Source: Neptunicoccus cionae (GTDB lineage: Bacteria; Pseudomonadota; Alphaproteobacteria; Rhodobacterales; Rhodobacteraceae). Taken from it: DNA of 64,000 nt. Below are positions 10,474 to 57,082 of the stretch, piece by piece. Every line of letters begins with the position of its first letter. Positions within the stretch are counted from its first letter, which is position 1. Made by a program: the position numbers and the translations under genes. The stretch spans positions 372,001 through 436,000 of the forward strand of contig NZ_BMKA01000001.1 in the NCBI RefSeq assembly GCF_014643735.1, in the 5' to 3' direction. The notes under the pieces were generated by a model. It had not been told where the DNA came from, did not search any database, and saw only the letters and a program-made list of their open reading frames with translations.

Positions 10474-10483
10474 GGTCTGTTCC

Positions 10484-35465: not shown

Positions 35466-36439
35466 CGTTTGCCTCCTACACGGGGGTCTACAAGGCGCAG
35501 GGCCAAATCGGTAAGCAGGTTGCCTGCGATCACCACAAGGGCCGAGAAGAACAGGATGCCAAGAATGGTTGGCGTGTCCCGCGCGATAATGGATTGAAAG
35601 GCAAGCGTCCCAAGACCCGGCCAGGAAAACACGGCCTCTACCAGTACAGCGCCCGAAATAACGGCGGAGAACTGCAGGCCGGCCAGTGTGATCACCGGAG
35701 AGAGAGAGTTTTTCAGCGCGTGCTTATAAACCACTTCCCGCTCTGTCAGGCCTTTGGCCTTGGCGGTGCGCACATAATCCGATCCCAGAACCTCCATCAT
35801 GGTGGCACGGGCAAGCCGCGAATAAAGCGCAAGAAACAGAGAGCCGAGCGTGATGACCGGCAGCACAAGGTGCCTCGCGACATCAAGGGCATGGGTGAAG
35901 AAACCGCCCTCGATGGTTACATCACGCATACCGGCGACGGGGAACCACTGAATTTTAAGGGAGAATGCGATCAGCAGCAGGATACCGGTCCAGAATACAG
36001 GTGCAGAATACCCGAACAGCGCCAGCATGGTCACAAAGTGGCTGGCGATCCCATTGGGGCGCCGCGCCGAAATCACGCCAAGCACCACGCCGATACCAAG
36101 TGCGAGAATTTGCGCCGTGAACACCAGCAACAGGGTTGCAGGCAGTCTCTCAAGGATCAGATCGGTGACGGGGGCATTGTAAAAGAACGAATAGCCCAGA
36201 TTGAATTGCAGCACATTGCCCATGTAGCGGCCCAGTTGGACCAGAAAGGGTTGATCAAGACCGTAATCGGCGCGGATCTGTGCCAGCACCTCTTCGTCGG
36301 CGCCGCCCATAGACTGGCTGATGGTGTCGGCCACGTCGCCGGGGGCAAGGTGCATCATTGAAAAGTTGAGAACCAGCACCGCTGCAAGCAGGATCACGGC
36401 ATATAGCGTGCGGATAAGGAATTTCTGGAGGAAAGCCAC
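35462..36439 (-). CDS. Peptide-type ABC importer permease, DppB type
   Basis: A 325-residue permease, first helix TLYAVILLAAVLVLNF, EAA loop DYVRTAKAKGLTEREVV. The start is set at the GTG at 36439, which gives the family N-terminus. An upstream TTG at 36484 would add 15 residues without family character. Follows the binding-protein gene by 64 bases. Confidence 0.92.
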   Translation of the reverse strand: MAFLQKFLIRTLYAVILLAAVLVLNFSMMHLAPGDVADTISQSMGGADEEVLAQIRADYGLDQPFLVQLGRYMGNVLQFNLGYSFFYNAPVTDLILERLPATLLLVFTAQILALGIGVVLGVISARRPNGIASHFVTMLALFGYSAPVFWTGILLLIAFSLKIQWFPVAGMRDVTIEGGFFTHALDVARHLVLPVITLGSLFLALYSRLARATMMEVLGSDYVRTAKAKGLTEREVVYKHALKNSLSPVITLAGLQFSAVISGAVLVEAVFSWPGLGTLAFQSIIARDTPTILGILFFSALVVIAGNLLTDLALRLVDPRVGGKR

Positions 36440-36503
36440 GAGCGTTCTTCTTCTAAATAGAGGGAGGGAGGCGGCAGGCCGCAAGGCCCGCCGCGCTGGA
36501 TGA

Positions 36504-38078: not shown

Positions 38079-38259
38079 AGGGGAATACCTCCGGTTGGTT
38101 GATTCTTTTTTATTATGATCAAAGCCTAGCGCAGCCCGATTCATGCTAAAACCATTATATTAGAGGGTCATTCTTACATTTTACTGAGGAAGGAGTATTA
38201 AGCCTTTTAATTAAGGTGTTAAGTGTTTTTCTGCGGCGATAAGTAGGATTTAAACATTC

Positions 38260-39183
38260 CTATTGGACCACCAAATCACTGAAAACACCGGATTCCCGCA
38301 AGGAAATGCAGTGCTCTATGAAGGCGCTGACGATCTGGGGGCGGCGGCTTAGCTCACTCGTGACAATGCCAAACACCGGAGTATCTACAGTGTCCCGTAT
38401 CGGCAGGATAGAGAAGGGCTGATTGCTGCCGCCATAGCCCGGCGGCAGGATGTTCAGGATAGAAAAACCGAACCCTCCTGATACCAGCGCCCTGACGATT
38501 TCCGACGATCGGGTCGAGTGCACAATATTTGGCGTTAGTCCCCGTTTCGTGAACATATTCGCGAAATAAGCGCGGGTACGCGGCAGATCCAACAACACCA
38601 TCGGCAGAGAACACAGCTCTTCGTAGCTGACATCGGACTGTCCGCTCAGCGGGTGCTCCTGCGGAATAAGGGCATAGGGCGGGGCGCTGAACAAGGGAAC
38701 GAAGCCCTGACCTTCTTCGACTGTTTCGTCATAGGAAAAGACAAGGTCAACATCCCCTTCGCTTAGGAATTTTGCGGCTGCATCCATGCTGCCTTCCAAA
38801 AGCATGATAGAGATCCCAGGGTGGTTTTCCGAAAAACTTTTCAAGATCAGAGGTAGAAACGATGGTGCAGCCGTAGCATAGCACCCGATCCGCACAGCGC
38901 CGGTGGCTTGCCCATCTACGGATTGGACTTCAGCCTCAAAATGGCGGCTTTGTTCGAGAAACCGGCGGACGGCCTGCAGGACCTCCCCGCCCAGCGCAGT
39001 TGGCTTCACGCCTTTTGCCGGTGTGCGTACAAATATATCGTAACCGATCTCTCGTTCCATTGCGTCTATTGCGGCAGATATAGAGGACTGGGAGATAGAC
39101 AGATCCTCGGCAGCCATCGCAATTGATCCATGTCGTCCCGCCGCATCTAAATAGCGAAGCTGTTTTAACGTGTAGTTTTGCAT
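38260..39183 (-). CDS. LysR-family transcriptional regulator
   Basis: A 307-residue regulator with an N-terminal winged HTH (YTLKQLRYLDAAGRHGSIAMA, then LSISQSSISAAIDAMEREIG) and a C-terminal effector-binding domain (VRIGCYATAAPSFLPLIL). The start at 39183 gives the usual LysR N-terminus. An ATG at 39219, with GGAAG 7 bases ahead, is a real alternative adding 12 residues. It probably controls the peptide importer that begins 181 bases downstream; that is inference from position. Confidence 0.9.
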   Translation of the reverse strand: MQNYTLKQLRYLDAAGRHGSIAMAAEDLSISQSSISAAIDAMEREIGYDIFVRTPAKGVKPTALGGEVLQAVRRFLEQSRHFEAEVQSVDGQATGAVRIGCYATAAPSFLPLILKSFSENHPGISIMLLEGSMDAAAKFLSEGDVDLVFSYDETVEEGQGFVPLFSAPPYALIPQEHPLSGQSDVSYEELCSLPMVLLDLPRTRAYFANMFTKRGLTPNIVHSTRSSEIVRALVSGGFGFSILNILPPGYGGSNQPFSILPIRDTVDTPVFGIVTSELSRRPQIVSAFIEHCISLRESGVFSDLVVQ

Positions 39184-39471
39184 GACGCTGCGACCTCGGG
39201 TTTGGTATTCTATAGACATTCAAACGCTTCCACTCGAAAAGCTCAAGCCTTTCAGGTGTTTATTCAGTGCATGCTGCCGTATGCGAAGAGCATACTAAGT
39301 TTTATTGGGCTAGATCTGCTGTGATTAAGGTACACTGCAGGCCGCCCTATAAGGGAGTTCTGGCTCTATAAATTCAATACGAGCAATTTATTGCGTACTC
39401 ACAGATTCAATCTGAACCTTTTGCCGAGGCCCCGCGTTAAGGGGATGAATACACTCGAAAGGGAAATTGTG

Positions 39472-41328: not shown

Positions 41329-42162
41329 ATGACCAAGACCAGCTATTTCGCCCCTACCGGCGGCCACCCCGACCAGACGCAACTTCTGTCGGATCGTGCT
41401 GTCTTCACGGATGCTTACGCGGTAATCCCCAAGGGCACCATGCGCGATATTGTAACCAGTTTCTTGCCCTTCTGGGAAGGCACGCGGCTTTGGGTTATTT
41501 CCCGTCCTCTGTCGGGTTTTGCCGAAACTTTCTCTCAATATATCATGGAAGTTCAACCCGGTGGCGGTTCGGATAAACCGGAATCCGATCCCGAGGCACA
41601 GGGTGTCCTATTCGTGGTGGAAGGCAGCTTCGAGCTGACTTTCAACGGAGAAACCCATACTTTGGAAGAGGGCGGTTATGCGTATCTGCCTGCGGGGATG
41701 GACTGGACGCTGCGCAACACGTCCGAACAGGTCACGCGGTTTCATTGGGTGCGCAAAGCCTATGAGGCGGTGGACGGTTTAGACCTGCCTGATCCCGTAA
41801 TTGCGAATGAAAAAGACATTGCGCCGAATGTTATGCCGGACACGGATGGTGTCTGGGCGACAACCCGTTTTGTAGACCCGAACGATCTGCGCCACGATAT
41901 GCACGTCACAATTGTGACCCTGCAACCGGGCGGCGTCATCCCGTTTTGCGAAACCCACGTGATGGAACACGGTCTTTATGTGCTTGAAGGTAAAGCGGTT
42001 TACCGGCTCAATCAGGACTGGGTTGAGGTTGAGGCCGGCGATTACATGTGGCTTCGCGCGTTCTGCCCGCAGGCTTGTTATGCGGGTGGCCCGGGCCCGT
42101 TCCGCTATCTTTTGTATAAGGATGTGAACCGGCACATGAAGTTGAAACTGTCTAAAAGTTAA
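41329..42162 (+). CDS. allE: (S)-ureidoglycine aminohydrolase
   Basis: A 277-residue bicupin similar to E. coli AllE/YlbA. It releases ammonia from (S)-ureidoglycine to give (S)-ureidoglycolate, the late step of purine ureide breakdown. The C-terminal cupin carries the metal site in CETHVMEHGLYVLEG (Glu, His, His) and the following Gln in FCPQACYAGG; the terminal YLLYKDVNRHMKL is also family-typical. GGAG precedes the ATG. Its stop codon overlaps the convergent bhcR stop (shared TTAA). With ureidoglycolate lyase at 52623 it would produce glyoxylate, the substrate of the neighbouring cycle. Confidence 0.87.
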   Translation: MTKTSYFAPTGGHPDQTQLLSDRAVFTDAYAVIPKGTMRDIVTSFLPFWEGTRLWVISRPLSGFAETFSQYIMEVQPGGGSDKPESDPEAQGVLFVVEGSFELTFNGETHTLEEGGYAYLPAGMDWTLRNTSEQVTRFHWVRKAYEAVDGLDLPDPVIANEKDIAPNVMPDTDGVWATTRFVDPNDLRHDMHVTIVTLQPGGVIPFCETHVMEHGLYVLEGKAVYRLNQDWVEVEAGDYMWLRAFCPQACYAGGPGPFRYLLYKDVNRHMKLKLSKS

Positions 42163-43007
42163 GGTTTCGGGGGCTGGTCTGCGCTGGCCCCCATTGCCTG
42201 TGACACACGGGTCGCAGCGTTGATAACCTCAACGGCAAGCTCTTCGATTTGTGTCTCGTCGATCCGGCTGGTGGGGCCGGAGACGGAAATCCCCGCGATC
42301 ACCTCTCCCAATGCGTTGCGGATCGGGGCCGCGATACAGCGCATGCCTGTGTTGCGCTCTTGATCGTCCACGGAATAGCCCCGCTCGCGCACCTGATCCA
42401 AATCCGCCTCTAGCGCGGGCAGCGTGTCGCGCGTATGAGGGGTGAACCGCTCCAGCCCTGACCGTGCAAAACGGTTCAGCCGCGCGGTGTCAAAATAGGC
42501 CAGAAGCACCTTGCCGATGCCAGAAGCATGCAGCGGCGAAAGCGTACCAGGTGGGAAGAAGGCGCGGATCGGTGCGTGGGTTTCGACCTGTCCTAAAAAT
42601 AGCACATGACCGTCCTTTTCCACACCGAGGTTCGCAGTCTCTCCGGTGATTTCCATCAGCTCGCGCAGGATCGGGCGGCTGGTTTCAACCAGACTGGTCC
42701 GGCGCAAAAAAGCAGAGCCGATCAGAAACGCCCCCGCACCAATATGCCAGGTCTGGGTGCTATCCTTCGTTTCAACAATTTGATGCTGCGCGAGCGTGGT
42801 TAACACACGGTAAAGCGTGGCCGGAGATTCCCCGAGCCTGTTGGACAATTCGCTGAGCGAAGCACCGTCATAGGCCGCGACTTCTTCCAACACCACCATC
42901 GCACGATCCAGCGATTTGATGGTGTTTTGTTCGGTCTTTTCATTAAAGGCGCGGGGGCGGCCCCGTGGTTTACGCTCTTTGTTTTTGTCATTGTCTTGGA
43001 AAGCCAT
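42159..43007 (-). CDS. bhcR: IclR-family regulator of the beta-hydroxyaspartate cycle
   Basis: A 282-residue regulator: a basic N-tail (ERKPRGRPRAF), a winged HTH (about 30-90, SLSELSNRLGESPATLYRVL) and an IclR effector domain (VEKDGHVLFLGQVE; LHASGIGKVLLA; RERGYSVDDQERNTGMRCIAAPI). It lies divergent from bhcABCD exactly as bhcR does in Paracoccus denitrificans, where it controls the cycle operon in response to glyoxylate (established knowledge). The ATG at 43007 has GAGGAAG upstream. An upstream in-frame ATG at 43070 would run through the AT-rich promoter and is rejected. Confidence 0.92.
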   Translation of the reverse strand: MAFQDNDKNKERKPRGRPRAFNEKTEQNTIKSLDRAMVVLEEVAAYDGASLSELSNRLGESPATLYRVLTTLAQHQIVETKDSTQTWHIGAGAFLIGSAFLRRTSLVETSRPILRELMEITGETANLGVEKDGHVLFLGQVETHAPIRAFFPPGTLSPLHASGIGKVLLAYFDTARLNRFARSGLERFTPHTRDTLPALEADLDQVRERGYSVDDQERNTGMRCIAAPIRNALGEVIAGISVSGPTSRIDETQIEELAVEVINAATRVSQAMGASADQPPKP

Positions 43008-43026
43008 TAAATCTTCCTCATCGAAA

Positions 43027-43043
43027 TTGAAATATGGTTTCAC
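43027..43043. promoter_or_regulatory. Candidate BhcR operator 1
   Basis: TTGAAA, TATGG, TTTCAC: an inverted repeat TGAAA-N5-TTTCA lying about 20 bases upstream of the bhcR start. It has the same architecture as operator 2. An overlapping repeat TTTCA-N5-TGAAA (43038-43052) adds further symmetry. Role inferred from position and symmetry. Confidence 0.5.
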
Positions 43044-43094
43044 AATATGAAAAATGTAAGTTGCTGGCAAACAATAATAAATCTAATTATATGA

Positions 43095-43117
43095 TTTTTG
43101 AAAAATGATTTCAAAAA
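43095..43117. promoter_or_regulatory. Candidate BhcR operator 2
   Basis: TTTTTGAAA (43095-43103) and TTTCAAAAA (43109-43117) form a perfect 9-bp inverted repeat with a 5-base spacer, about 60-80 bases upstream of the bhcA start. The core TTGAAA-N5-TTTCA matches operator 1. Confidence 0.6.
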
Positions 43118-43175
43118 AATTGTTAATTGGTAACGGAGAGCATAATCTGTGGGAAACAGTCTGATGGAGGACATT

Positions 43176-44366
43176 ATGAGTTTTCAAAATCCCGTCTTTA
43201 TTCCCGGCCCGACCAACATGCCCGAGGCGATCCGTCAGGCGTGCTACATGCCCACAATCGACCACCGCTCCCCCTTGTTTGGGGATATCCTGCACCCGTG
43301 TCTGGACGGTGTGCGGCGGGTGTTGAAGTCCGAAAGTGCCAGCATCTTTATCTTTCCGTCTACCGGAACGGGCGGTTGGGAAACTGCACTGACAAACACG
43401 CTTAGCGCTGGCGATAAGGTTCTCGCGGCGCGCAATGGTATGTTCTCCCATCGCTGGATTGATATGTGCCAGCGTCACGGTCTGGACGTGCAGGTGGTGG
43501 AAACGCCTTGGGGCGAAGGGCTGCCTGCGGACAAATACGAAGAGATCCTGCGCGCCGATACCTCCCACCAGATCAAGGTTGTGCTGGCGACCCACAATGA
43601 AACCGCTACCGGTGTAAAATCTGATATCGCCGCCGTGCGCCGAGCATTGGATGCAGCGGGGCATCCGGCGATGTTGTTTGTGGACGGGGTCAGTTCGATC
43701 GGGTCTATGGACTTCCGGATGGACGAATGGGGCGTGGATATTGCCGTAACCGGATCGCAAAAAGGGTTCATGTTGCCTGCCGGTCTCGCCATTGTCGGGG
43801 TCAGTGCGAAAGCGATGGAAGCGACAAAAACCGCCAGCCTGCCGCGCACTTTCTTTGATTTGGGCGATATGCAGAAGGGTTATGACAACAACGCCTTTCC
43901 TTATACGCCGCCTGTGGGTTTGATGAACGGGCTGAAACTGTCCCTTGAGATGTTGGAGGCTGAAGGGCTGGAAAGTGTTTTTGCCCGTCACGCGCGGATT
44001 GCTACGGGTGTTCGCAAGGCTGTGGACGCATGGGGCTTGCAACTTTGCGCGGCGTCGCCCGAGGTGTATTCCAACAGCGTTTCTGCCATTCGCACGCCTG
44101 AAGGGTTCAACGCGACTGGTATCGTTAATGTTGCCGCAAAGGATTACGGCATGGCGTTTGGCGTTGGTCTTGGCGAAGTTGCGGGCAAGGTGTTCCGCAT
44201 CGGCCACCTTGGGATGTTGACAGATGCGATGATGTTGTCTGGGCTAGGTGTCGCTGAAATGGTGATGGTTGATCTGGGGTTGGACGTTAAGCTTGGCTCC
44301 GGTGTTGCCGCGGCGCAGGACTTTTACCGCCACGGCGGGCAGAGTGCGCGTCAGGCCGCTGCGTGA
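43176..44366 (+). CDS. bhcA: Aspartate-glyoxylate aminotransferase
   Basis: A 396-residue class V PLP aminotransferase that transfers the amino group of aspartate to glyoxylate, yielding oxaloacetate and glycine. It starts with FIPGPTNMPEAIR and has Lys196 in TGSQKGFMLPAG as the expected PLP lysine and FVDGVSSIGSMDFRMDEW ahead of it. Serine-glyoxylate aminotransferases and PucG are close relatives, but the operon order bhcR/bhcA-B-C-D fixes the assignment. GGAGG lies 5 bases before the ATG. The next gene starts 14 bases after the stop. Confidence 0.94.
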   Translation: MSFQNPVFIPGPTNMPEAIRQACYMPTIDHRSPLFGDILHPCLDGVRRVLKSESASIFIFPSTGTGGWETALTNTLSAGDKVLAARNGMFSHRWIDMCQRHGLDVQVVETPWGEGLPADKYEEILRADTSHQIKVVLATHNETATGVKSDIAAVRRALDAAGHPAMLFVDGVSSIGSMDFRMDEWGVDIAVTGSQKGFMLPAGLAIVGVSAKAMEATKTASLPRTFFDLGDMQKGYDNNAFPYTPPVGLMNGLKLSLEMLEAEGLESVFARHARIATGVRKAVDAWGLQLCAASPEVYSNSVSAIRTPEGFNATGIVNVAAKDYGMAFGVGLGEVAGKVFRIGHLGMLTDAMMLSGLGVAEMVMVDLGLDVKLGSGVAAAQDFYRHGGQSARQAAA

Positions 44367-44380
44367 AGGGGCAAACCGAG

Positions 44381-45340
44381 ATGATCATTCCAACTTTTGA
44401 CGATATGCTGGCCGCCCACGAACGGGCCAGACCTTACATCCACCGCACGCCGGTTCTAACATCGTCTTATGTGAACACGCTTGCGGGCTGCGAGATTTTC
44501 TTCAAATGCGAAAATTTCCAGAAAGCGGGTGCGTTCAAGGTGCGCGGTGCTTCTAACGCGGTGTTCGGTCTGTCCGATGCCGAGGCGAAGAACGGTGTCT
44601 GCACCCATAGCTCCGGCAACCACGCGCTGTCCCTGTCATATGCGGCGGGACGGCGGGGGATTCCTTGCAATGTGGTGATGCCCCGCACAGCGCCAGAGGC
44701 CAAGAAAGCTGCCGTGCGCGGATACGGTGGCACGATTACTGAGTGCGAGCCGTCAACGTCTTCCCGCGAAGAGGTTTTCGCGCAGGTGCAGGAACAGACG
44801 GGCGGCAATTTCGTCCACCCCTACAACGATCCCCGCGTGATTGCAGGGCAGGGCACCTGCTCGCGGGAACTGCTGGAGCAGATGGAGGATTTCGGCGGCG
44901 AACTGGATATGGTTGTCGCCCCGATTGGTGGCGGCGGGATGATTTCGGGCACCTGTCTGACGCTGTCCAACCTTGCGCCCAAAGTGCAGGTTATTGCGGC
45001 GGAACCGGAACAGGCGGATGACGCCTATCGCAGTTTCAAGGCAGGCCATATCATCGCAGATGATGCGCCTGAAACGGTGGCAGACGGGCTGAAAGTGCCG
45101 CTGAAGGATTTGACGTGGCACTTTGTGAAAAACCATGTGTCCGATATTTTGACTGCCAGCGATCCTGAAATTGTCGATGCAATGAAGCTGATCTGGCAGC
45201 GTATGAAAATCGTGATGGAACCCAGCAGCGCCGTGCCGCTGGCTACCATTCTAAAGAACAAGGACATCTTCGCGGGCAAGCGCGTAGGCGTCATCATTAC
45301 CGGCGGTAACGTCGATCTGGCAAAGCTGCCGTGGCTGTAA
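44381..45340 (+). CDS. bhcB: Beta-hydroxyaspartate dehydratase
   Basis: A 319-residue fold-type II PLP enzyme (threonine dehydratase/serine racemase family). Lys53 in GAFKVRGASNA is the Schiff-base lysine; SSGNHALSLSYAA and the phosphate-binding IGGGGMISG are intact. There is no C-terminal ACT regulatory domain, as in BhcB and unlike biosynthetic IlvA. It removes water from erythro-beta-hydroxyaspartate to give iminosuccinate. The ATG at 44381 was preferred over an in-frame GTG at 44363 that overlaps bhcA. Confidence 0.93.
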   Translation: MIIPTFDDMLAAHERARPYIHRTPVLTSSYVNTLAGCEIFFKCENFQKAGAFKVRGASNAVFGLSDAEAKNGVCTHSSGNHALSLSYAAGRRGIPCNVVMPRTAPEAKKAAVRGYGGTITECEPSTSSREEVFAQVQEQTGGNFVHPYNDPRVIAGQGTCSRELLEQMEDFGGELDMVVAPIGGGGMISGTCLTLSNLAPKVQVIAAEPEQADDAYRSFKAGHIIADDAPETVADGLKVPLKDLTWHFVKNHVSDILTASDPEIVDAMKLIWQRMKIVMEPSSAVPLATILKNKDIFAGKRVGVIITGGNVDLAKLPWL

Positions 45341-45356
45341 GAAAAGGAACGAACCG

Positions 45357-46517
45357 ATGAAAGATATTAACTTTGAGCAACTGGAAGTTGGCTTTGACGT
45401 TCCCGCTGTGCCGGGCATGGATGCAGCCGATATTCAGACGCCTTGTCTGGTGCTTGATCTGGACGCGCTGGAACGGAACATCAAGAAGATGGGCGATTAT
45501 GCCAAGGACCACGGGATGCGGCATCGCGCCCACGGCAAGATGCACAAATCCGTAGATGTGCTGAAGCTGCAACAGGACCTTGGCGCGGCGGTTGGCGTTT
45601 GCTGTCAGAAGGTTTCCGAGGCTGAAGTGTTCGCCCGTGGTGGCATCAAGGATGTGATGGTGTCTAACCAAGTGACCGATCCGGCCAAGATCGACCGGCT
45701 GGCAAAGATGCCGAAACTCGGCTGTCGTGTGTTGGTTTGTGTGGATGATCCCGAAAACGTCAAGGCGTTGTCCGAAGCTGCTGTAAAACACGGCACGCAG
45801 ATAGAGGCGCTGGTGGAAATCGACTGTGGCGCGGGGCGTTGCGGGGTCAGCACGACACAGGACGTGGTAAATATTGCCAAGCTGATCGACAGTGCAGAAG
45901 GCCTGAAATTCGCTGGTATTCAGGCCTATCAGGGCGCTATGCAGCACATGGATCTTTACACGGATCGCAAGGAAAAGCTCGACGTGGCGATTGCGCAGGT
46001 GGCCGACGCGGTGCAGGGGCTGAAAAGCAACGGGCTGGACTGCGACATCGTCGGTGGTGGCGGTACAGGGTCCTATTATTTTGAGAGCGGCTCTGGCGTT
46101 TATAACGAACTGCAATGCGGATCATACGCATTTATGGACGCAGATTATGGCCGGATTTTGGATGAGGATGGCCAGCGGATTGATCAGGGCGAATGGGAAA
46201 ACGCGCTGTTTATCCTGACCACAGTGATGAGCCACGCAAAGGCAGATAAGGCGATTGTGGATGCAGGGCTAAAAGCGCAATCCGTGGATTCCGGCCTGCC
46301 GTTTGTCTATGGCCGCGATGATGTGGAATACCTGAAATGTTCGGACGAACACGGTGTTGTTGCGGACCCGAATGGTGCCTTGAAGGTAAACGACAAGCTG
46401 CGTCTGGTGCCCGGTCACTGTGATCCGACCTGTAACGTGCATGACTGGTACGTGGGCGTGCGCGGTGACAAGGTGGAAACCGTCTGGCCGGTTTCGGCCC
46501 GTGGCAAAGCCTACTGA
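45357..46517 (+). CDS. bhcC: Beta-hydroxyaspartate aldolase
   Basis: A 386-residue D-threonine-aldolase-like (DSD1 family) enzyme with a fold-type III PLP barrel. RAHGKMHKS at about 60 contains the PLP lysine, and GHCDPTCNVHDWY near the C-terminus holds the His/Cys metal site of the family. It condenses glycine and glyoxylate to beta-hydroxyaspartate, the carbon-joining step of the cycle. AAGGA precedes the ATG. A GC-rich hairpin separates it from bhcD. Confidence 0.94.
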   Translation: MKDINFEQLEVGFDVPAVPGMDAADIQTPCLVLDLDALERNIKKMGDYAKDHGMRHRAHGKMHKSVDVLKLQQDLGAAVGVCCQKVSEAEVFARGGIKDVMVSNQVTDPAKIDRLAKMPKLGCRVLVCVDDPENVKALSEAAVKHGTQIEALVEIDCGAGRCGVSTTQDVVNIAKLIDSAEGLKFAGIQAYQGAMQHMDLYTDRKEKLDVAIAQVADAVQGLKSNGLDCDIVGGGGTGSYYFESGSGVYNELQCGSYAFMDADYGRILDEDGQRIDQGEWENALFILTTVMSHAKADKAIVDAGLKAQSVDSGLPFVYGRDDVEYLKCSDEHGVVADPNGALKVNDKLRLVPGHCDPTCNVHDWYVGVRGDKVETVWPVSARGKAY

Positions 46518-46539
46518 GCCTAACATCTATAATTCAAAA

Positions 46540-46561
46540 CGGGGCCGGTTCGCTGGCCCCG
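46540..46561. other. Hairpin between bhcC and bhcD
   Basis: CGGGGCC (46540-46546) and GGCCCCG (46555-46561) form a perfect 7-bp GC stem with an 8-base loop and no T-tract. It may stabilise the upstream mRNA or modulate bhcD expression. Confidence 0.6.
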
Positions 46562-46589
46562 ACCCGTTCCAGACAGAAAGTACGCTCCC

Positions 46590-47555
46590 ATGTTGATCGT
46601 CCCCGAAAAAGAAATCGCCAATCTGATGACACGCGCGGCAGCGTTTGACGCTGTGAAAGGGGTGTTTGCCTCTATGTCCGCAAAAACGGCGTATAATTTC
46701 CCTGTGATCCGCGAAGCGATCGGCCACGCGGATGCGCTTTACGGATTCAAGTCCGGCTTTGACAAAGCAGCGCTGAATCTGGGTCTGAAATCAGGGGGTT
46801 ACTGGCCTGGCAACGCGGAAAAGGGGCTGACCAATCATCAATCCACGATCTTTCTGTTCGATGCGGATACCGGCAAATGTCGCGCCATAGTCGGTGGCAA
46901 TCTGCTGACGGCATTGCGCACTGCGGCGGCGGCGGCTGTGTCAGTGGATTGCCTTGCGCGGCAGGAGTCCGAGGTTCTGGGCATTGTCGGGGCAGGTCAT
47001 CAGGCCGCCTTTCAATTGCGCGCTGTGGCCGAACAGCGGGATTTCAAACGGGTGGTGGCTTGGAACCGCTCTCCCGAAAAACTCGACACCCTGCGCAGTG
47101 TTGCCGAAGAACTGGGGCTTGGCTTTGAGGCCGTCAGTCTTGATGAACTGGGGGCGCAAAGCGATGTGATTGTGACCATCACCTCCAGCTTTGACCCGAT
47201 CTTGCAACAGGGCCAAATCCGCGCCGGAACCCATGTGGCTTGCATGGGAACAGACACAAAGGGCAAACAGGAGATCGCCGCTGCGCTGTCTGGCGATGCG
47301 CGGCTGTTTACCGACGAGATCGCCCAATCCGTCACCATTGGAGAGTTCCAGCACCCTGTCGCTGAAGGGCTGGTCGATCAGGACCGCATCAACGAGCTTG
47401 GCGCTGTGATCAATGGCACGACGGCGGGGCGAGCCTCGGACGAAGAGATTACGATTTTCGATGGCACAGGGGTTGGTCTGCAAGACCTTGCCGTGGCTTC
47501 GGCGGTTGTCGAACTGGCGGTGGGACAGGGCGTCGCGCAGGACGTGGAATTTTGA
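46590..47555 (+). CDS. bhcD: Iminosuccinate reductase
   Basis: A 321-residue member of the ornithine cyclodeaminase/mu-crystallin family with the nucleotide motif GIVGAGHQAAFQ at about 130 and the family segments GYWPGNAEKGL and ACMGTDTKGKQE. It reduces iminosuccinate to aspartate with NAD(P)H, regenerating the amino donor for BhcA and closing the cycle. Last gene of the bhc operon. The start has only a weak ribosome-binding site. Confidence 0.93.
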   Translation: MLIVPEKEIANLMTRAAAFDAVKGVFASMSAKTAYNFPVIREAIGHADALYGFKSGFDKAALNLGLKSGGYWPGNAEKGLTNHQSTIFLFDADTGKCRAIVGGNLLTALRTAAAAAVSVDCLARQESEVLGIVGAGHQAAFQLRAVAEQRDFKRVVAWNRSPEKLDTLRSVAEELGLGFEAVSLDELGAQSDVIVTITSSFDPILQQGQIRAGTHVACMGTDTKGKQEIAAALSGDARLFTDEIAQSVTIGEFQHPVAEGLVDQDRINELGAVINGTTAGRASDEEITIFDGTGVGLQDLAVASAVVELAVGQGVAQDVEF

Positions 47556-47626: not shown

Positions 47627-47701
47627 ATCGGTCCAGACGTAAGTTTCAAGCCTAAGAAAAGCCGCGCTTTTTTCGCGTGCCCAGCCATAAGAAAAGTGAA
47701 T

Positions 47702-48694
47702 ATGAAAAAGGTCCGTGTCGCAATTCACGGGTTCGGCAGGATCGGACGTTCGATCCTGCGCGCCCTCTCTACCAGCCGTCAGGATAGCGGAGTGGAGGTC
47801 GTGTTGATCAACGATCTCGCCCCGCTGGAGACCTGCGCCTATTTGTTCGAATTTGACAGCATCTTCGGCCCGTTCCCAGGCACGGTGGACACCCGCGGTA
47901 ACGATCTGGTGGTGAACGGCGCAGCGATCCCTTTTCACCAGATTGATCCCGCAGCCCCGTTGCCGGACATGGCGGGGATCGACATTCTGCTGGAATGTTC
48001 GGGCCGTGCCACCAGTCGCGCTGTGGCGGAAGCCGGATTGCAGGCGGGGGCAGGGGCTGTGCTGATTTCCGGCCCGTCGGATGCTGCGGATGTGACGCTG
48101 GTGCTTGGTGCGAATGACGGGGCCTATACCGGCCAGCAGATCGTTTCTAATGCGTCTTGCACCACCAATGCGGTCGCGCCGCTGTTGCGTTTGTTAGAGG
48201 ATAATTTTGGCGTGTCCGGCGGGCACATGAACACGATCCATTGCTACACCAGCAGTCAGCCGACGATTGACACGGCGGGCAAGGATCTGGCCCGCAGCCG
48301 TGCGGCGGCGCTGTCTATGGTGCCGACTACTTCCAGCGCGACAAGACTGATTGACCGTGTTGTTCCCGATTTGGCCGGACGTATCACCGGCAGCGCTGTG
48401 CGGGTTCCCGTGGCCAGCGTATCTGCCGTGGATCTTGTGGTGAAGCTGGACCGGCGTGATGCGGATTTTACCGAAGCGTTGCAAACGGCGGTTGAGGCTT
48501 GCCCCGTGCTCGGCTGGACCCCAAAACCGCTGGTTTCAACCGATTTGCGCAGCCGCCCCGAATCTCTTGTGCTGGCAGGGCCGGAGCTGATCACAGGCCC
48601 AGAGTTTACCCGCATTTTCGGCTGGTATGACAATGAATGGGGCTTTTCCAACAGAATGATCGACGTGGCCCGAAAAATGGGCGCGTCGCAATAA
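47702..48694 (+). CDS. GAPDH-family dehydrogenase with altered substrate-site motif
   Basis: A 330-residue phosphorylating aldehyde dehydrogenase-fold protein. The N-terminal NAD motif GFGRIGRS, catalytic Cys153 in NASCTTN and His180 are present, as is WYDNEWGFSNRM. The usual HSYTGDQ reads HCYTSSQ (180-186) and the usual PTSTGA reads PTTSSA, so residues around the substrate-phosphate site differ from canonical GAPDH. It may act on another substrate or be a specialised gluconeogenic paralogue. It sits between the bhc operon and maeB, 21 bases ahead of the latter. The ATG at 47702 was chosen over a GTG two codons earlier. Confidence 0.88.
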   Translation: MKKVRVAIHGFGRIGRSILRALSTSRQDSGVEVVLINDLAPLETCAYLFEFDSIFGPFPGTVDTRGNDLVVNGAAIPFHQIDPAAPLPDMAGIDILLECSGRATSRAVAEAGLQAGAGAVLISGPSDAADVTLVLGANDGAYTGQQIVSNASCTTNAVAPLLRLLEDNFGVSGGHMNTIHCYTSSQPTIDTAGKDLARSRAAALSMVPTTSSATRLIDRVVPDLAGRITGSAVRVPVASVSAVDLVVKLDRRDADFTEALQTAVEACPVLGWTPKPLVSTDLRSRPESLVLAGPELITGPEFTRIFGWYDNEWGFSNRMIDVARKMGASQ

Positions 48695-48714: not shown

Positions 48715-50991
48715 ATGGTTGACGAGACCAAAAAGGCCGTAGAACGGCAGGCGGCGCTGGATTATCATGAGTTCCCCAAACCCGGTAAACTGGAAATCCG
48801 CGCGACCAAGCCGATGGCAACGGGCCGTGATCTCAGCCGTGCGTATTCCCCCGGTGTGGCCGATGCCTGTCTGGAAATTGAAAAGAACCCCGCAGATGCC
48901 GTGCGATATACCGCCAAGGGCAATCTGGTCGCGGTGATTTCTAACGGGACAGCCGTGCTGGGGCTGGGCGATATCGGGGCGCAGGCCTCCAAGCCGGTGA
49001 TGGAGGGCAAGGCCGTCCTGTTCAAGAAATTCGCCGGTGTGGATTGCTTTGACATTGAGGTGAACGAAACCGATCCCGAAAAGCTGGCCGATCTGGTGTG
49101 CAAGCTGGAACCGACTTTTGGCGCGATCAACCTTGAAGATATTAAGGCGCCGGATTGTTTTGTGGTGGAACGCATCTGCCGTGAACGCATGGGCATTCCG
49201 GTGTTCCACGACGACCAGCACGGCACAGCCATTGTTGCCGCTGCTGCTGCCACCAACGCGCTGCGGGTGGCGGGTAAGAACTTTGAGGACATCAAGATCG
49301 TTGCGCTGGGCGCAGGGGCGGCAGGGATTGCCTGCCTGAAAATGATGATGGTGATGGGCGCGAAGAAAGAAAACATCACCATGCTCGACAGCAAGGGTGT
49401 GGTGCATACATCGCGCAACAACCTGACGGAAGAGAAACAGGAATTCGCCCGCGACACCGAAATGCGCACCACGATGGATGCGATGGAGGGGGCCGATCTG
49501 TTCCTTGGCGTGTCCGGACCGGGGCTGCTGACACCAGAGATGGTTAAGAAAATGGCGGATCATCCGATCATCTTTGCGTTGGCCAATCCGACACCTGAAA
49601 TCATGCCGGAACTGGCCCGCGAAGCCTCGCCAGATGCGCTGATCGCCACAGGGCGTTCGGATTATCCCAATCAGGTCAACAACGTGCTATGCTTTCCGTT
49701 CATCTTTCGCGGGGCGCTGGATGTCGGGGCGACCCAGATCAATGACGCGATGAAAGTGGCCTGCGTAGAGGCGATTGCCGGACTGGCGCGGGAAACCGCC
49801 AGCGCCGAACTTGGCGCGGCCTATCAGGGGGAGCGGCTGTCTTTCGGGCCGGAATACCTGATCCCGAAACCATTTGATCCGCGGCTGCTGCCTACCATCG
49901 CCGTTGCTGTGGCCAAAGCAGCAATGGACAGCGGAGTGGCTACGCGGCAGGTGGATATCAAGGACTACCGCGCAAGGTTGCAGTCACAGGTCTATCGTTC
50001 CTCCATGATTATGCGCCCCGTGTTTGAGGCCGCCCGCCTTGAAAAACGCCGCATTGTCTTTGCCGAAGGCGAAGAACCCCGCGTGCTGCGGGCGGTTCAG
50101 GCCATGTCCGAAGAAATGCACGTCAATGCCGTGATTGTTGGCCGCCCCGAAGTGGTGGAGCGCCGGATCGAACGGGAAGGGCTGTCGATCACGCCGGGCA
50201 AGGATTTTGAGGTGGTGAACCCTGAAAATGACAGTCGCTATCGCGATTACTGGGGCAGCTATCACAAGCTGATGGCCCGCAAAGGCGCGACGCCCGATTT
50301 GGCCAAGGCGATCATGCGCACCAACAGCACGGCGATTGCCGCAACGATGGTGCATCGCGGAGAGGCTGACAGTATGATCTGCGGCGTCTTTGGACAGTAT
50401 CACTGGCATCTGAATTACATTCGTCAGATCCTCGAAACTCCAGACCTGCATCCCGCGGGTGCGCTGTCGCTGGTTATTCTGGAAAAAGGGCCGTTGTTTG
50501 TGGCGGATACACATGTCCACATCGAACCGACCGCGCAGCAACTGGCCGGAACGATGGTTGCAGCCGCCCGCCACGTCCGCCGCTTCGGGGTGACGCCGAA
50601 AGTGGCACTGTGTTCCAGTTCGCAGTTTGGCAATCTGGACAGCACCTCGGGCCGGTTGTCCCGCGATGCGCTGGCGATCCTTGATTCCGTTGAAACCGAT
50701 TTCGAATATGAGGGCGAAATGCACACGGATGCGGCGCTTGATCCGGAACTGCGGGAATACCTGATGCCCAACAACCGGCTGACAGGGAAGGCCAATGTGC
50801 TGGTCTACACAAACTCTGACGCATCGGGTGCTGCGCGCAATCTGTTGAAATCTGTGGCTGACGGGCTGGAAGTTGGCCCGATCCTTATGGGCATGGGCAA
50901 CCGCGCCCATATCGTCACATCCGGTGTGACCGTGCGCGGTCTGCTCAACATAGCCGCTTTGGCAGGGACACCGGTATCCAGCTATGGCTAA
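48715..50991 (+). CDS. maeB: NADP-type malic enzyme fused to phosphotransacetylase-like domain
   Basis: Oxidatively decarboxylates malate to pyruvate. The 758-residue protein has the malic N-domain ([36 protein letters not shown]), the NAD(P) domain ([13 protein letters not shown]) and, from about residue 430, a phosphotransacetylase-like domain typical of MaeB ([27 protein letters not shown]). The C-terminal domain is regulatory rather than catalytic in known MaeB proteins. GAGGAG lies 7 bases before the ATG. Next to the bhc genes it would convert C4 acids from glyoxylate to pyruvate and NADPH. Confidence 0.96.
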
Positions 50992-51136: not shown

Positions 51137-52567
51137 TTAGCCGCTCAACTTGCCAGAGCCATGTCCCGACATGCCGCCCGATACTTCTTCGGTCGACTCG
51201 TTGGACAGTTCCTCTGGCAGCACAAGGTTGAGGACTATCGCAATCACCGCTGCAGGCAGTAGGCCCGATGTCATCAGGATGCGCAGGGTGTCTGGCAGGT
51301 ACTGCACGGCTTTGGGCTCCAGTTGTAGGCCAAGACCGACAGACAGGGCAATCGCGAAGATCACCATGTTGCGGCGGTTCCAGTTCACATCTGAAAGCAT
51401 GGAAATACCGGCGGCAACGACCATGCCGAACATGACGATGACACCACCGCCAAGCACTTCGATCGGGATTGTGCGGATCAGGGCGCCCACTTTCGGCACG
51501 AGACCACAGATGATCAGGAAGATTGCGCCGATGGTCACCACATGGCGGCTCATCACGCCGGTCATGGCGATCAGGCCGACGTTCTGGCTGAACGATGTGT
51601 TCGGAAAGCCGCCAAAGATGCCTGCAACCGCAGAACCGACACCGTCTGCATAGGTCGCACCGGTGATTTCGGCGTCCGTTGCCTCGCGGCCAGCGCCACC
51701 ACGGGTGATACCCGAAACGTCGCCTACGGTTTCAACCGCCGAAACGAAGGCCATCAGGCAGAAGCCCACGATTGCTGCAAAGCCGAACTCCAGCCCGTAT
51801 TTGAACGGAACAGGCATTGCGATAGGTGCCGCGCGGGACCAGCTGGTGGCGATGCCGTCAAACGTGACCAATCCGAAGATCATCGAATAGAAATACCCCA
51901 CGATAATGCCGATCACCACGGCGGAGACGGCCATCATCCCACGGGCAAAGAACTTTAGCCCCAGCGTCACAAGGACCACGACAAGGGCGACAGACCAGTT
52001 CAAAAGACTGCCGTATTCCGGTTTGTTAATAGCAGGCACACCGCCCGCGGCGTATTGAATACCGACTTTAACCAGCGCAAGGCCGATCATGGTTACAATC
52101 AGTCCGGTGACCAGCGGGGGCAGCGCGAAACGTATTTTACCAATGAACGTCCCGATGATTGCGTGGAACAAGCCACCCACCAGCACACCGCCAAAAAGGG
52201 CGGGCATGGCCTCTACGCCTTTACCGGCGACCAGCGGAATCATGATCGGGATAAAGGCAAAGCTGGTGCCCTGCACGATGGGTAGACGTGCGCCAACCGG
52301 ACCCATGCCGATGGTCTGGAACAGTGTGGCGATCCCTGCAAACAGCATGGACATCTGGATCAGATAGGTCATATCCGGAAAGCCCTGCGCCCCCGCATCA
52401 GAGCCAAAGCCGAAACCGGCGGCCCCAGAGATGATGATCGCCGGTGTCACGTTCGACACAAACATCGCCAGAACGTGCTGAATCCCGAGAGGGATCGCCT
52501 TGTGCAACGGTGGCGTGAAATTGGGATCGCGGAGTTGTTCCGCTGTCCCGAGTGAATTGTCTGACAT
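51137..52567 (-). CDS. NCS2-family xanthine/uric acid permease
   Basis: A 476-residue inner-membrane purine permease with about 14 hydrophobic segments. The QGTSFAFIPI segment, FGFAAIVGFCLMAFVSAVETVGD and NTSFSQNVGLIAMTGVMSRHV match xanthine/urate transporters (UacT/PucJ/PucK-like), which differ from uracil carriers in the QNVG region. GGGAG precedes the ATG. It is the second gene of an operon with ureidoglycolate lyase (55-base gap). Confidence 0.93.
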   Translation of the reverse strand: MSDNSLGTAEQLRDPNFTPPLHKAIPLGIQHVLAMFVSNVTPAIIISGAAGFGFGSDAGAQGFPDMTYLIQMSMLFAGIATLFQTIGMGPVGARLPIVQGTSFAFIPIMIPLVAGKGVEAMPALFGGVLVGGLFHAIIGTFIGKIRFALPPLVTGLIVTMIGLALVKVGIQYAAGGVPAINKPEYGSLLNWSVALVVVLVTLGLKFFARGMMAVSAVVIGIIVGYFYSMIFGLVTFDGIATSWSRAAPIAMPVPFKYGLEFGFAAIVGFCLMAFVSAVETVGDVSGITRGGAGREATDAEITGATYADGVGSAVAGIFGGFPNTSFSQNVGLIAMTGVMSRHVVTIGAIFLIICGLVPKVGALIRTIPIEVLGGGVIVMFGMVVAAGISMLSDVNWNRRNMVIFAIALSVGLGLQLEPKAVQYLPDTLRILMTSGLLPAAVIAIVLNLVLPEELSNESTEEVSGGMSGHGSGKLSG

Positions 52568-52622: not shown

Positions 52623-53114
52623 TTAATCTGTGTCTGTGACCTCCCAAGGGTGGTCAAACCAGTGTTCCTGAAGATTTGCGCCGTCTCCGATGCGATCCAC
52701 TACGGCGAACAGGCCGGGATCATGCAGCGGTGTCAGCACGCCGTGCCAGACGTTGCGGTGAAAGTTGATGCCTTGCCCCGGTGCGGTGATAAAGGCGACA
52801 GGCTCTGCCGGTGCGCCACCTGCATCCGGTGCCACGATCACAAGAAACGGGTTCTGGTGCATTGGCAGGAAGGCCTGACTGCCGTCGGGGTGGCGCTCCA
52901 TCATGGTGAGCGTCAACGGCAGGTCGCGCTTTTGCGCGTTGAACAAGCTAACACCGGCGCGCCCTTCGTTGAACTCCAACGTGGCGCGGTCATGGTAACG
53001 TCCGCACAATCCTTCGTTGATAATTTTATCCGCCGGACCTTCGACATCCAGAACCTCGCCAAATGGGGCAAAAGCCGCGCTGGTGATAGGACTAACCTGG
53101 ATGGTTCGGTGCAT
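52623..53114 (-). CDS. allA: Ureidoglycolate lyase
   Basis: Splits (S)-ureidoglycolate into glyoxylate and urea. The 163-residue cupin-like protein has the family segments FAPFGEVLD, MERHPDGSQAFLPM and NFHRNVWHGVLTPL with its His/Asp residues. GGGAGAG lies 7 bases before the ATG. It directly supplies the glyoxylate that the bhc operon assimilates. Genes for the intermediate steps (hydroxyisourate hydrolase, OHCU decarboxylase, allantoinase) are not in this window. Confidence 0.95.
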   Translation of the reverse strand: MHRTIQVSPITSAAFAPFGEVLDVEGPADKIINEGLCGRYHDRATLEFNEGRAGVSLFNAQKRDLPLTLTMMERHPDGSQAFLPMHQNPFLVIVAPDAGGAPAEPVAFITAPGQGINFHRNVWHGVLTPLHDPGLFAVVDRIGDGANLQEHWFDHPWEVTDTD

Positions 53115-54811: not shown

Positions 54812-55729
54812 TCAGGTCTGCTCGGTGGCGCGGATTGCGGATTCTATGCGCTCGATCATGAACTCCATAAACAGCCGCGCTTTGGGGTCTTGATGACGGC
54901 GGTGGGTATAAAGACAAGCCATCTGAACGGGCAGGGGCGGGGTCTCTTCCACCACGGGGACTAGTGCGCCACTGCGCAAATGCTCGGCGATTTCAAAAAC
55001 GGGTTTCAGGGCGATGCCCGCACCGGCCAGCGCCCAATCCGTTAAAACATCCCCGTCATCACATTCTATCCGGCCCCGTACGTTGAATTTCTGCGGTCCG
55101 TCTGATGTTTCCAGCTCCCATTGAAACTCGGCCGCACCGGGGTAGCGCAGGTTCAGGCAGTTGTGCTGGCCCCGCTCGATCTCGGCGCCGGTTTTGGGGT
55201 GGCCGTGGCTTTCGATATAGGCGGGGCTGGCACAAAGAACGCGCTGGCAGTCGGCAATCTTGCGAATACGCAGGTTGGAATCTGCAGGTCGCCCCAGAAA
55301 GAACGAGATATCCAACCCCTCGGCTGTCAGGTCAATGTTGCGGTCACTCAGCCTAAGGCGCACATCCACAAGCGGATACTGCGCCGTAAATTCCGGCGTG
55401 TGGGGCGCAATCAAGCGCCGCCCCACCCCAAGAGGTGCCGCAATATAGAGTGTGCCACGGGGATTGTCCGTCACATCACCGATACTCGCCTCGGCAGATT
55501 CTACGGCTTCGAGCACGCCGCAAGCACCCTCATAGAACAACTGTCCCTGTTCGGTGGGGGTCAAACTGCGGGTGGTGCGCTGGAATAGGCGCACGTCAAG
55601 ATGGGCCTCAAGCTGGGAAATCCGCGCCGAAGCCACCGCGGGGGATATCCGCTGGTCCCGCGCCGCCGCTGACATGCTGCCCAATTCATACACCCGTATG
55701 AAGGTTCTGATATTATCGAAATAAGACAT
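54812..55729 (-). CDS. LysR-family regulator next to puuD
   Basis: A 305-residue LysR regulator of the CrgA/AaeR-like subgroup: HTH FIRVYELGSMSAAARDQRIS followed by VASARISQLEAHL, and an effector domain with LYIAAPLGVGRRLIAP. It is divergent from puuD with a 96-base gap, so it probably regulates urate oxidation; the effector is unknown. Confidence 0.9.
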   Translation of the reverse strand: MSYFDNIRTFIRVYELGSMSAAARDQRISPAVASARISQLEAHLDVRLFQRTTRSLTPTEQGQLFYEGACGVLEAVESAEASIGDVTDNPRGTLYIAAPLGVGRRLIAPHTPEFTAQYPLVDVRLRLSDRNIDLTAEGLDISFFLGRPADSNLRIRKIADCQRVLCASPAYIESHGHPKTGAEIERGQHNCLNLRYPGAAEFQWELETSDGPQKFNVRGRIECDDGDVLTDWALAGAGIALKPVFEIAEHLRSGALVPVVEETPPLPVQMACLYTHRRHQDPKARLFMEFMIERIESAIRATEQT

Positions 55730-55825: not shown

Positions 55826-57082
55826 ATGTATGATATCGCAATCTTGTGGGATTGGTTTGCCTTCGCGGTCCGCTGGCTGCACGTTATTACGGCCATCGCA
55901 TGGATCGGATCGTCGTTCTATTTTGTCGCACTTGATCTGGGGTTGCGTAAGGCGCCCGACTTGCCGGTTGGTGCCCATGGCGAGGAATGGCAGGTGCACG
56001 GGGGCGGGTTTTACCACATCCGCAAGTTCCTTGTCGCGCCCGAGAATATGCCCGATCATCTGATCTGGTTCAAATGGGAAAGCTACGCCACATGGCTGTC
56101 CGGTGCCGCCTTGCTGATGATCGTTTATTGGGTCGGGGCAGAGCTGTTTCTGATTGACCCAGCCAAAGCCGATCTCGCGGTGTGGCAGGCTATTCTGATT
56201 TCCGGCGGCTCCCTGACAATCGGTTGGATTTGTTACGATTTCCTGTGCAAATCCAAACTGGGTGAGACGCCGACCCTTTTGATGCTGCTGCTGTTTGTCA
56301 TCCTTGTGGCCATGTCTTGGGGCTATAACCAGATCTTCACAGGGCGCGCTGCGCTGCTGCATCTGGGGGCGTTTACGGCGACAATTATGACGGCGAATGT
56401 GTTCCTGATCATCATGCCAAACCAGCGCATTGTGGTGAAGGATTTGCAGGAAGGCCGCACCCCTGATCCGAAATACGGCAAGATCGCCAAGCTGCGTAGC
56501 ACCCACAACAACTATCTGACGCTGCCGGTTTTGTTCCTGATGCTGTCCAACCACTACCCGCTGGCCTTTGCGACAGAATACAGCTGGATTATCGCCTCTT
56601 TGATCTTCCTGACAGGCGTTACCATCCGTCATTATTTCAACACCATGCACGCCACCGGACGGGGACCAAGCTGGACATGGGCGGCGACTGTGATCCTGTT
56701 CGTGATCATCGCATGGCTGTCCACCGCTTCAAGCTGGGACGGGGAATATGATACGGTCGAGAACCAGCCGCTAACCAACTACGAACAGCGCTATGCCGAG
56801 GCTGAAGGCTTTGAAAAAGTCCACGAAATAGTCCTTGGCCGCTGCTCTATGTGTCACTCCCGCGAACCTGCGTGGGAGGGCATGCACTGGGCCCCCAAAG
56901 GCGTGCATCTGGAGACCAAATCCGACGTCGCCCGCGCCGCGCGCCAAATCTACCTGCAATCCGGCGTCACCCACGCCATGCCTCCCGCAAACATCACCTA
57001 CATGCCAGACGAGGACCGCGTGAAGATCGTGAAATGGTTCCGCAGAGCGAATGAGAATACACTGGCGGGGGTATTGGAGTAG
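55826..57082 (+). CDS. puuD: Urate oxidase PuuD, membrane type with cytochrome c domain
   Basis: Oxidises urate to 5-hydroxyisourate with electrons passed to cytochrome c rather than O2. The 418-residue product has an N-terminal membrane domain of about eight helices (WLHVITAIAWIGSSFYF; GGGFYHIRKF; LTLPVLFLMLSNHYP) and a C-terminal c-type heme domain with CSMCH at 340-344 and MPPANITYM supplying the likely axial Met. AAGGAG lies 9 bases before the ATG. It is the first committed step of the purine branch represented in this window. Confidence 0.95.
   Translation: MYDIAILWDWFAFAVRWLHVITAIAWIGSSFYFVALDLGLRKAPDLPVGAHGEEWQVHGGGFYHIRKFLVAPENMPDHLIWFKWESYATWLSGAALLMIVYWVGAELFLIDPAKADLAVWQAILISGGSLTIGWICYDFLCKSKLGETPTLLMLLLFVILVAMSWGYNQIFTGRAALLHLGAFTATIMTANVFLIIMPNQRIVVKDLQEGRTPDPKYGKIAKLRSTHNNYLTLPVLFLMLSNHYPLAFATEYSWIIASLIFLTGVTIRHYFNTMHATGRGPSWTWAATVILFVIIAWLSTASSWDGEYDTVENQPLTNYEQRYAEAEGFEKVHEIVLGRCSMCHSREPAWEGMHWAPKGVHLETKSDVARAARQIYLQSGVTHAMPPANITYMPDEDRVKIVKWFRRANENTLAGVLE

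Follow-up and report, generated by a model that had tools for sequence, protein, structure and literature searches.

Which source of glyoxylate does a beta-hydroxyaspartate cycle (BHAC) operon serve when it lies among genes for purine breakdown? We addressed this question for the bhcR-bhcABCD operon at 42159-47555 of a 64,000-nucleotide stretch of Neptunicoccus cionae DNA (contig NZ_BMKA01000001.1, positions 372,001 to 436,000; hereafter the window). The steps of the BHAC have been shown in Paracoccus denitrificans by others, and the cycle is discussed as a marine route for algal glycolate. In the window, the operon shares its locus with genes for urate oxidase, ureidoglycine aminohydrolase, ureidoglycolate lyase and a purine permease (Table 1); the product released by the lyase, glyoxylate, is the substrate of the BHAC. 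Judged from gene content and gene order, it is likely that the operon encodes a working BHAC and forms the carbon-recovery end of a purine-degradation cluster at this locus, because purine genes recur beside bhc operons while control genes do not, because P. denitrificans also has purine genes behind bhcD, and because no genome of the family sample has glyoxylate carboligase above its cut-off.

Table 1. Features of the bhc locus in the window, with model scores as score/cut-off in bits and protein identities to P. denitrificans
Feature	Position	Strand	Score and remarks
(S)-ureidoglycine aminohydrolase	41329..42162	+	536.7/338; NF040771 515.3/350; TIGR03214 309/200
bhcR, IclR-family regulator	42159..43007	-	NF045644 387.9/350; 51% identity; likely start ATG 43007, frame readable from TTG 43070
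bhcR-proximal palindrome TGAAATATGGTTTCA, candidate BhcR operator	43028..43042	.	palindrome search
bhcA-proximal palindrome TGAAAAATGATTTCA, candidate BhcR operator	43099..43113	.	palindrome search; 71 bp from the other
bhcA, L-aspartate-glyoxylate aminotransferase	43176..44366	+	NF045640 734.3/650; 77% identity
bhcB, beta-hydroxyaspartate dehydratase	44381..45340	+	NF045641 592/550; 79% identity
bhcC, 3-hydroxy-D-aspartate aldolase	45357..46517	+	NF045642 749.4/690; 76% identity
bhcD, iminosuccinate reductase	46590..47555	+	NF045643 553.5/500; 64% identity
Divergent glyceraldehyde-3-phosphate dehydrogenase (GAPDH) paralogue	47696..48694	+	top model TIGR01534 310.3, below cut-off 367.2
NADP-malic enzyme with phosphotransacetylase-like domain (maeB type)	48715..50991	+	NF009501 981.5, below cut-off 1178; 3/88 loci
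NCS2 xanthine-type permease	51137..52567	-	TIGR03173 418.4/414.15
Ureidoglycolate lyase (makes glyoxylate + urea)	52623..53114	-	NF002952 276.7/260; NF009932 175/160
LysR-family regulator divergent from puuD	54812..55729	-	present in 22/88 loci
PuuD-type membrane urate oxidase	55826..57082	+	PF06181 E 4.3e-135

Identity of the bhc operon

Protein families were assigned by NCBIfam hmmscan with equivalog cut-offs, and all family assignments are reported as score and cut-off in bits. The operon was found to be complete, with bhcA, bhcB, bhcC and bhcD in a single run, bhcR divergent from bhcA, and all five reading frames uninterrupted (the starts of bhcA to bhcD in Table 1 are the likely ones). 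All five proteins exceeded the cut-offs of their Bhc equivalog models, as did the P. denitrificans Bhc proteins (locus L254), to which they are 51-79% identical. The rival families among those listed all scored below their own cut-offs (for BhcB, 25 of 42 families were listed), including threo-3-hydroxyaspartate ammonia-lyase (363.2/452), IclR (184.5/380), AllR (160.4/406) and alanine dehydrogenase (189.8/409). The top PDB sequence match of BhcC was D-3-hydroxyaspartate aldolase (6qkb, E 2.5e-200) and that of BhcD was iminosuccinate reductase (6rqa, E 3.7e-130); the top matches of BhcA, BhcB and BhcR were other members of their families. The pyridoxal 5'-phosphate lysines of BhcA, BhcB and BhcC and the GHCDPT site of BhcC, which we take to be catalytic as in the parent families, are intact in the window and were kept in the aligned relatives (BhcA, 86/86; BhcB, 87/88, with one gap; BhcC, 88/88). 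These alignments had 75 usable rows for BhcR, 86 for BhcA and 88 each for BhcB, BhcC and BhcD. The nearest BhcC proteins in the genome collection belonged to Neptunicoccus sediminis (98%), Amylibacter cionae (97%) and a Rhodobacteraceae metagenome-assembled genome (96%), which have the gene order of most of the neighbourhood in common. The 80 loci closest to the window by BhcC gave a first view of such neighbourhoods and supplied query proteins.

Each of these proteins comes from a broad superfamily with many other activities, and the run could in principle consist of paralogues (serine-glyoxylate aminotransferase, threonine dehydratase, D-threonine aldolase and alanine dehydrogenase) that became adjacent by accident and carry out no BHAC. 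This is highly improbable, since all five proteins exceeded the Bhc cut-offs while the listed alternatives stayed below theirs, and since the four enzymes share 64-79% identity and the same order with all four P. denitrificans enzymes. The results show the identity of the enzymes by family models, and the stretch 42159-47555 is almost certainly a BHAC operon; taken by itself, the operon is unremarkable and belongs to an already well-known kind. A preliminary description of this DNA had recognised four enzyme genes in the known order with a divergent IclR-type regulator, and had asked for alignment to the P. denitrificans proteins; its reading of the operon as the described system was borne out, and the clustering with serine-glyoxylate aminotransferase, threonine dehydratase and D-threonine aldolase that it named as contrary evidence did not occur. 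It passed over, however, the purine and ureide genes on both flanks, which are the more informative part of the locus.

Judged by orthology, BhcA would convert glyoxylate and aspartate to glycine and oxaloacetate, and BhcC would join the glycine to a second glyoxylate to give beta-hydroxyaspartate. BhcB would then dehydrate this product to iminosuccinate, which BhcD would reduce to aspartate, so that two glyoxylate would yield one oxaloacetate with no CO2 lost. The most likely local source of glyoxylate would be purine breakdown, with uptake followed by conversion of xanthine to urate, allantoin and allantoate, after which the product of 41329-42162 would lead to ureidoglycolate and that of 52623-53114 to glyoxylate and urea.

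Purine genes beside bhc operons

To describe the surroundings of bhc operons, we drew 219 genomes evenly from the same family; BhcC exceeded its cut-off in 94 of these, at 97 places. All 97 neighbourhoods were fetched, up to about 20 kb each, and 88 of them carry all four bhc genes; the remaining nine, which lacked a full bhcABCD by the thresholds used because of a contig end, a solitary BhcC or a single missed gene, were left out. Neighbours were counted within about 9.4 kb. Of the 88 full operons, 30 had two or more of six purine genes nearby, as did 25 of the 69 untruncated loci, and all six were present in 15/88. With added markers (guaD, xdh and further permeases), the counts rose to 33/88 and 28/69, respectively. 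The individual purine genes recurred in 21-29 of the 88 loci. As a control, unrelated window genes at equal distance from bhcC were counted, and these recurred in none (SBP5 and LysR1) or one (OmpA and RTX) of the 88, the single matches being the closest relative; the control excludes genes beyond the fetched distance (the ABC transporter genes dppF and dppD, 3/88 each, and dppC and dppB, 1/88 each; the frame at 57211, 0/88). The arrangement recurred as well. The aminohydrolase adjoins bhcR convergently in 25/29 loci, and the ureidoglycolate lyase is encoded downstream, on the other strand, in 29/29. In the window, the aminohydrolase and bhcR stand tail to tail with stop codons that overlap by 4 bp; the frame at 41329..42162 also exceeded the cut-off of a 'bifunctional allantoicase/(S)-ureidoglycine aminohydrolase' model (536.5/445). 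These results make it likely, from conserved linkage and gene order, that purines feed the cycle here.

At least 80% of the operon was present at one place in 105 of 72,556 plasmid records. Ten plasmid records, selected for organism spread among the 60 listed of 152, were examined; the gene tables of this collection are incomplete. The P. denitrificans locus has the same five genes, order and divergent regulator as the window, and both have purine genes downstream of bhcD. In P. denitrificans HAMBI_2443, genes for a xanthine permease (510.8/414) and an 8-oxoguanine deaminase (698.7/532) begin about 40 bp after bhcD on the same strand, followed co-directionally by uraH (65% to the 5-hydroxyisourate (HIU) hydrolase of the family) and puuD, whereas the window has the GAPDH paralogue and the malic enzyme after bhcD, and its permease and lyase on the opposite strand. 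A Leisingera aquaemixtae plasmid carries in one run modABC, the aminohydrolase, bhcR, bhcABCD, a urea-channel-like gene, a permease, ureidoglycolate lyase, allantoinase, uraH, puuD and xdhAB. Pseudosulfitobacter sp. DSM 107133 has xdh, guaD and the aminohydrolase upstream of its bhc run and an NCS1 nucleobase:cation symporter between bhcC and bhcD (L263:12527-13927). Methylobacterium radiotolerans, of another order, has 8-oxoguanine deaminase, an NCS2 permease and a molybdopterin protein after bhcD. The strain named R. pomeroyi SZCCDBG043 (L068) has the aminohydrolase and the lyase beside its bhc copy; purines in R. pomeroyi are reportedly a subject of work by Cunliffe in 2016. No purine genes were found in the stretches shown around the bhc copies of Paracoccus marcusii and Aminobacter, and an Acidiphilium record shows bhcA with none of the other operon genes. 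Together, the gene arrangements suggest a picture in which the bhc operon is a mobile glyoxylate module that is combined with varying feeders.

The site of the operon was also viewed in 20 BHAC-negative genomes, which were hand-picked from the upper part of the aminohydrolase list, lie outside the set of genomes with a BhcC-family match and are not a random draw. Seven of them have the aminohydrolase in direct opposition to the permease or the lyase, and thus the site without the operon; eight others have a co-directional order, three have no purine neighbour, and two have other genes at the junction. In the BHAC-negative locus L244 (11354-13753, aminohydrolase forward), a large frame resembling FAD-dependent oxidoreductases, named from its N-terminus only, lies between the aminohydrolase and the permease, at the usual place of the operon. 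Three loci (L177, L178 and L181) carry purine clusters or the aminohydrolase with a BhcC-like aldolase and no bhcA, B, D or R alongside; L177, which falls within the BHAC clade on the tree, is probably a reduced operon with a possible new use. One genome (G053) has two full BHAC operons (L156 and L169), each beside a ureidoglycine aminohydrolase gene.

In 26 of the 88 full operons, the GAPDH paralogue comes after bhcD in the same orientation, within 350 bp in 23 of them. Eight of these 26 loci have none of the six purine genes, and the paralogue also occurs in two purine clusters of BHAC-negative genomes. The catalytic Cys and His are conserved in the paralogue. Its residues 181 and 209 are both Ser in 26/26, whereas in 25 other GAPDHs residue 209 is Gly and residue 181 is mostly Asp or Thr. 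Two or three ordinary GAPDHs above cut-off are present as well in the ten genomes checked.

Among the other genes of the window, an RTX-repeat protein gene at 53504-54721 (1/88 loci) occupies the place that in many relatives holds the genes for allantoinase and HIU hydrolase, and a second RTX gene, with metallopeptidase matches, lies at 30025-31524. A run of oligopeptide/nickel-type ABC transporter genes at 32594-38144, with a LysR regulator at 38260-39219, has the same place only in the closest relatives. The M20 hydrolases at 9301-11638 were considered as allantoate amidohydrolase and rejected, as the listed allantoate amidohydrolase models scored far below cut-off; one of the pair is an acetylornithine deacetylase (above cut-off) and the other a general amidohydrolase.

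Candidate operators of BhcR

The ligand-site positions of BhcR were placed by alignment together with a table in PMC11323563. The residues A146, S154, G160, I161, D212, M220, S239 and S241 (E. coli IclR numbering) are present in the window protein, which at position 143 has Pro instead of the Thr of P. denitrificans.

The gap between bhcR and bhcA contains two exact 15-bp palindromes of the form TGAAA-N5-TTTCA, which are the sole matches with at most one mismatch in the 64 kb. By itself, a count of two in 64 kb is not significant (chance mean 2.3 with at most one mismatch). The case for operators comes instead from the conserved position across 85 intergenic regions (84 loci and the window) and from the spacing. 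An exact palindrome occurred in 49 of the 85 gaps, compared with a mean of 0.045 in mononucleotide composition shuffles, and one with at most one mismatch occurred in 70/85, compared with 1.2 in the shuffles. The palindromes are conserved at about -80 and -151 from bhcA. Of 54 site pairs (at most two mismatches), 41 had a spacing of 71-73 bp, which is nearly seven helical turns. The motif was not found in P. denitrificans L254 with at most one mismatch; a related sequence is visible there at the matching place. Section 5 of PMC11323563 proposes a two-site model for P. denitrificans BhcR, and the paired palindromes of the window, as candidate sites, fit it. From the conserved sites and the published P. 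denitrificans work, we infer that BhcR would sense glyoxylate and act through the two palindromes.

Source of the glyoxylate and its meaning for the family

Glyoxylate carboligase exceeded its cut-off (711.2 bits) in none of the 219 family genomes (top score 363.7) and in one of 14 control genomes, presumably E. coli. The BHAC would fill the place that this enzyme has in E. coli. In the three closest genomes, allantoinase and xanthine dehydrogenase are encoded elsewhere in the genome; allantoinase lies on another contig, and one of the three (G001) has a 118-aa HIU-hydrolase-like frame beside it.

Several findings weigh against a role of the operon in recovering carbon at the end of purine breakdown. 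The window itself has no match to allantoinase, uraH, xdhA and xdhC queries (E 1e-8), and no candidate BhcR site was found at any purine gene in it. Within about 9.4 kb, 51 of the 88 full operons have neither purine nor glycolate oxidase genes. The operon on the megaplasmid of Ruegeria pomeroyi DSS-3 has no purine gene within 14 kb, and Sinorhizobium and Rhizobium copies (L257 and L261) lie beside glcDEF and urea-amidolyase-family genes. The aminohydrolase exceeded its cut-off in 197/219 genomes and BhcC in 94, leaving at least 103 genomes with the aminohydrolase only, so that purine breakdown does not require the BHAC. Malate synthase G, a second glyoxylate outlet, is present in 3/3 of the closest genomes. 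Finally, loci with the purine link are dispersed over the BhcC tree and hardly more clustered than expected by chance, with 25 changes compared with a shuffled mean of 27.7 (as low in 48/500), on a quick tree in which 51 of 117 inner branches are unsupported and from which one of 120 loci (BhcC below 330 aa) was excluded. A single origin of the purine link was not supported on this tree, which has 24 changes among full operons; the scatter means repeated gain, loss or transfer, and gains and losses look alike on such a tree.

Shared BhcR control of the purine genes was rejected for now, as the palindrome is restricted to the bhcR-bhcA gap within the window. The lack of sites at the purine genes suggests that BhcR probably answers to glyoxylate derived from purines rather than controlling the purine genes, for which the LysR regulator beside puuD may be the likelier local control.

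The operons without a purine link would be expected if the true substrate of the BHAC were external glycolate, as described for marine bacteria, and if the purine genes nearby were leftover gene order with no functional meaning. PMC11323563 names glycolate as a substrate of the P. denitrificans system and ties bhcR and bhcABCD to growth on glycolate and glyoxylate; the rhizobial operons adjoin glcDEF; and GlcD-like proteins of the family reached top scores of 440-480 bits, although none of the 219 genomes exceeded the strict cut-off of the glycolate oxidase model TIGR00387 (567.9). We nevertheless regard this reading as unlikely, since genes for glycolate oxidase, the feeder described in the literature, lie near none of the 88 full operons (Sinorhizobium meliloti GlcD, GlcE and GlcF queries), since unrelated neighbours at equal distance recur far less often than the purine genes, and since P. 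denitrificans, Leisingera, Pseudosulfitobacter and Methylobacterium all have the link, each with its own arrangement. At E 1e-10, the sole GlcD/E/F match was to GlcF (32%) in L099, and the window has no match to glcDEF.

Alternatively, the cluster may serve nitrogen supply, with purines broken down to urea and ammonia and the BHAC mainly keeping toxic glyoxylate low rather than gaining carbon. Purine breakdown yields much nitrogen, urease was found in two of the three closest genomes, and the Leisingera plasmid has its urea-channel-like gene after bhcD. On the other hand, a net assimilation cycle of four enzymes would be a costly means of detoxification when malate synthase is present, and the closest genome without a urease match could not use its urea through urease. 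We give this explanation the same low standing as external glycolate, and carbon recovery from purines remains the reading that we favour.

Other known systems likewise place a glyoxylate outlet at the end of purine breakdown. The E. coli allantoin/glyoxylate regulon (gcl, glxK and AllR) also combines ureide breakdown with glyoxylate assimilation and a glyoxylate-sensing IclR-family regulator, but it uses glyoxylate carboligase, a route that loses one CO2 per two glyoxylate, where the window has the carbon-conserving BHAC. In Pseudomonas aeruginosa, the outlet PA1498-PA1502 is allantoin-inducible according to PMC12694930, and its product is pyruvate instead of the oxaloacetate that the BHAC yields. 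The introduction of PMC11323563, in its accessible part, mentions purines and allantoin as one source of glyoxylate, and none of the literature matches listed describes bhc genes and a purine context together. The purine context is what the present analysis adds to a known kind of operon.

For the Rhodobacteraceae and some relatives including P. denitrificans, we consider it moderately likely that the BHAC is largely a pathway for purine carbon, a portable core plugged into urate and ureide catabolism, in some cases within a single xanthine-to-oxaloacetate plasmid island that also encodes molybdate uptake and xanthine dehydrogenase, and that an undescribed GAPDH paralogue accompanies it in many lineages. 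A BHAC that lies among glyoxylate-making purine genes, and does so recurrently in many relatives, points to a little-noticed job for the pathway. If the BHAC serves purine carbon recovery in many genomes, instead of or besides glycolate assimilation, counts of bhc genes or transcripts in marine samples could no longer be taken to reflect only the use of glycolate. With the bhcABCD deletion strain described in the literature, a fate of nucleic-acid carbon that avoids carbon loss would then become testable in a tractable model, P. denitrificans.

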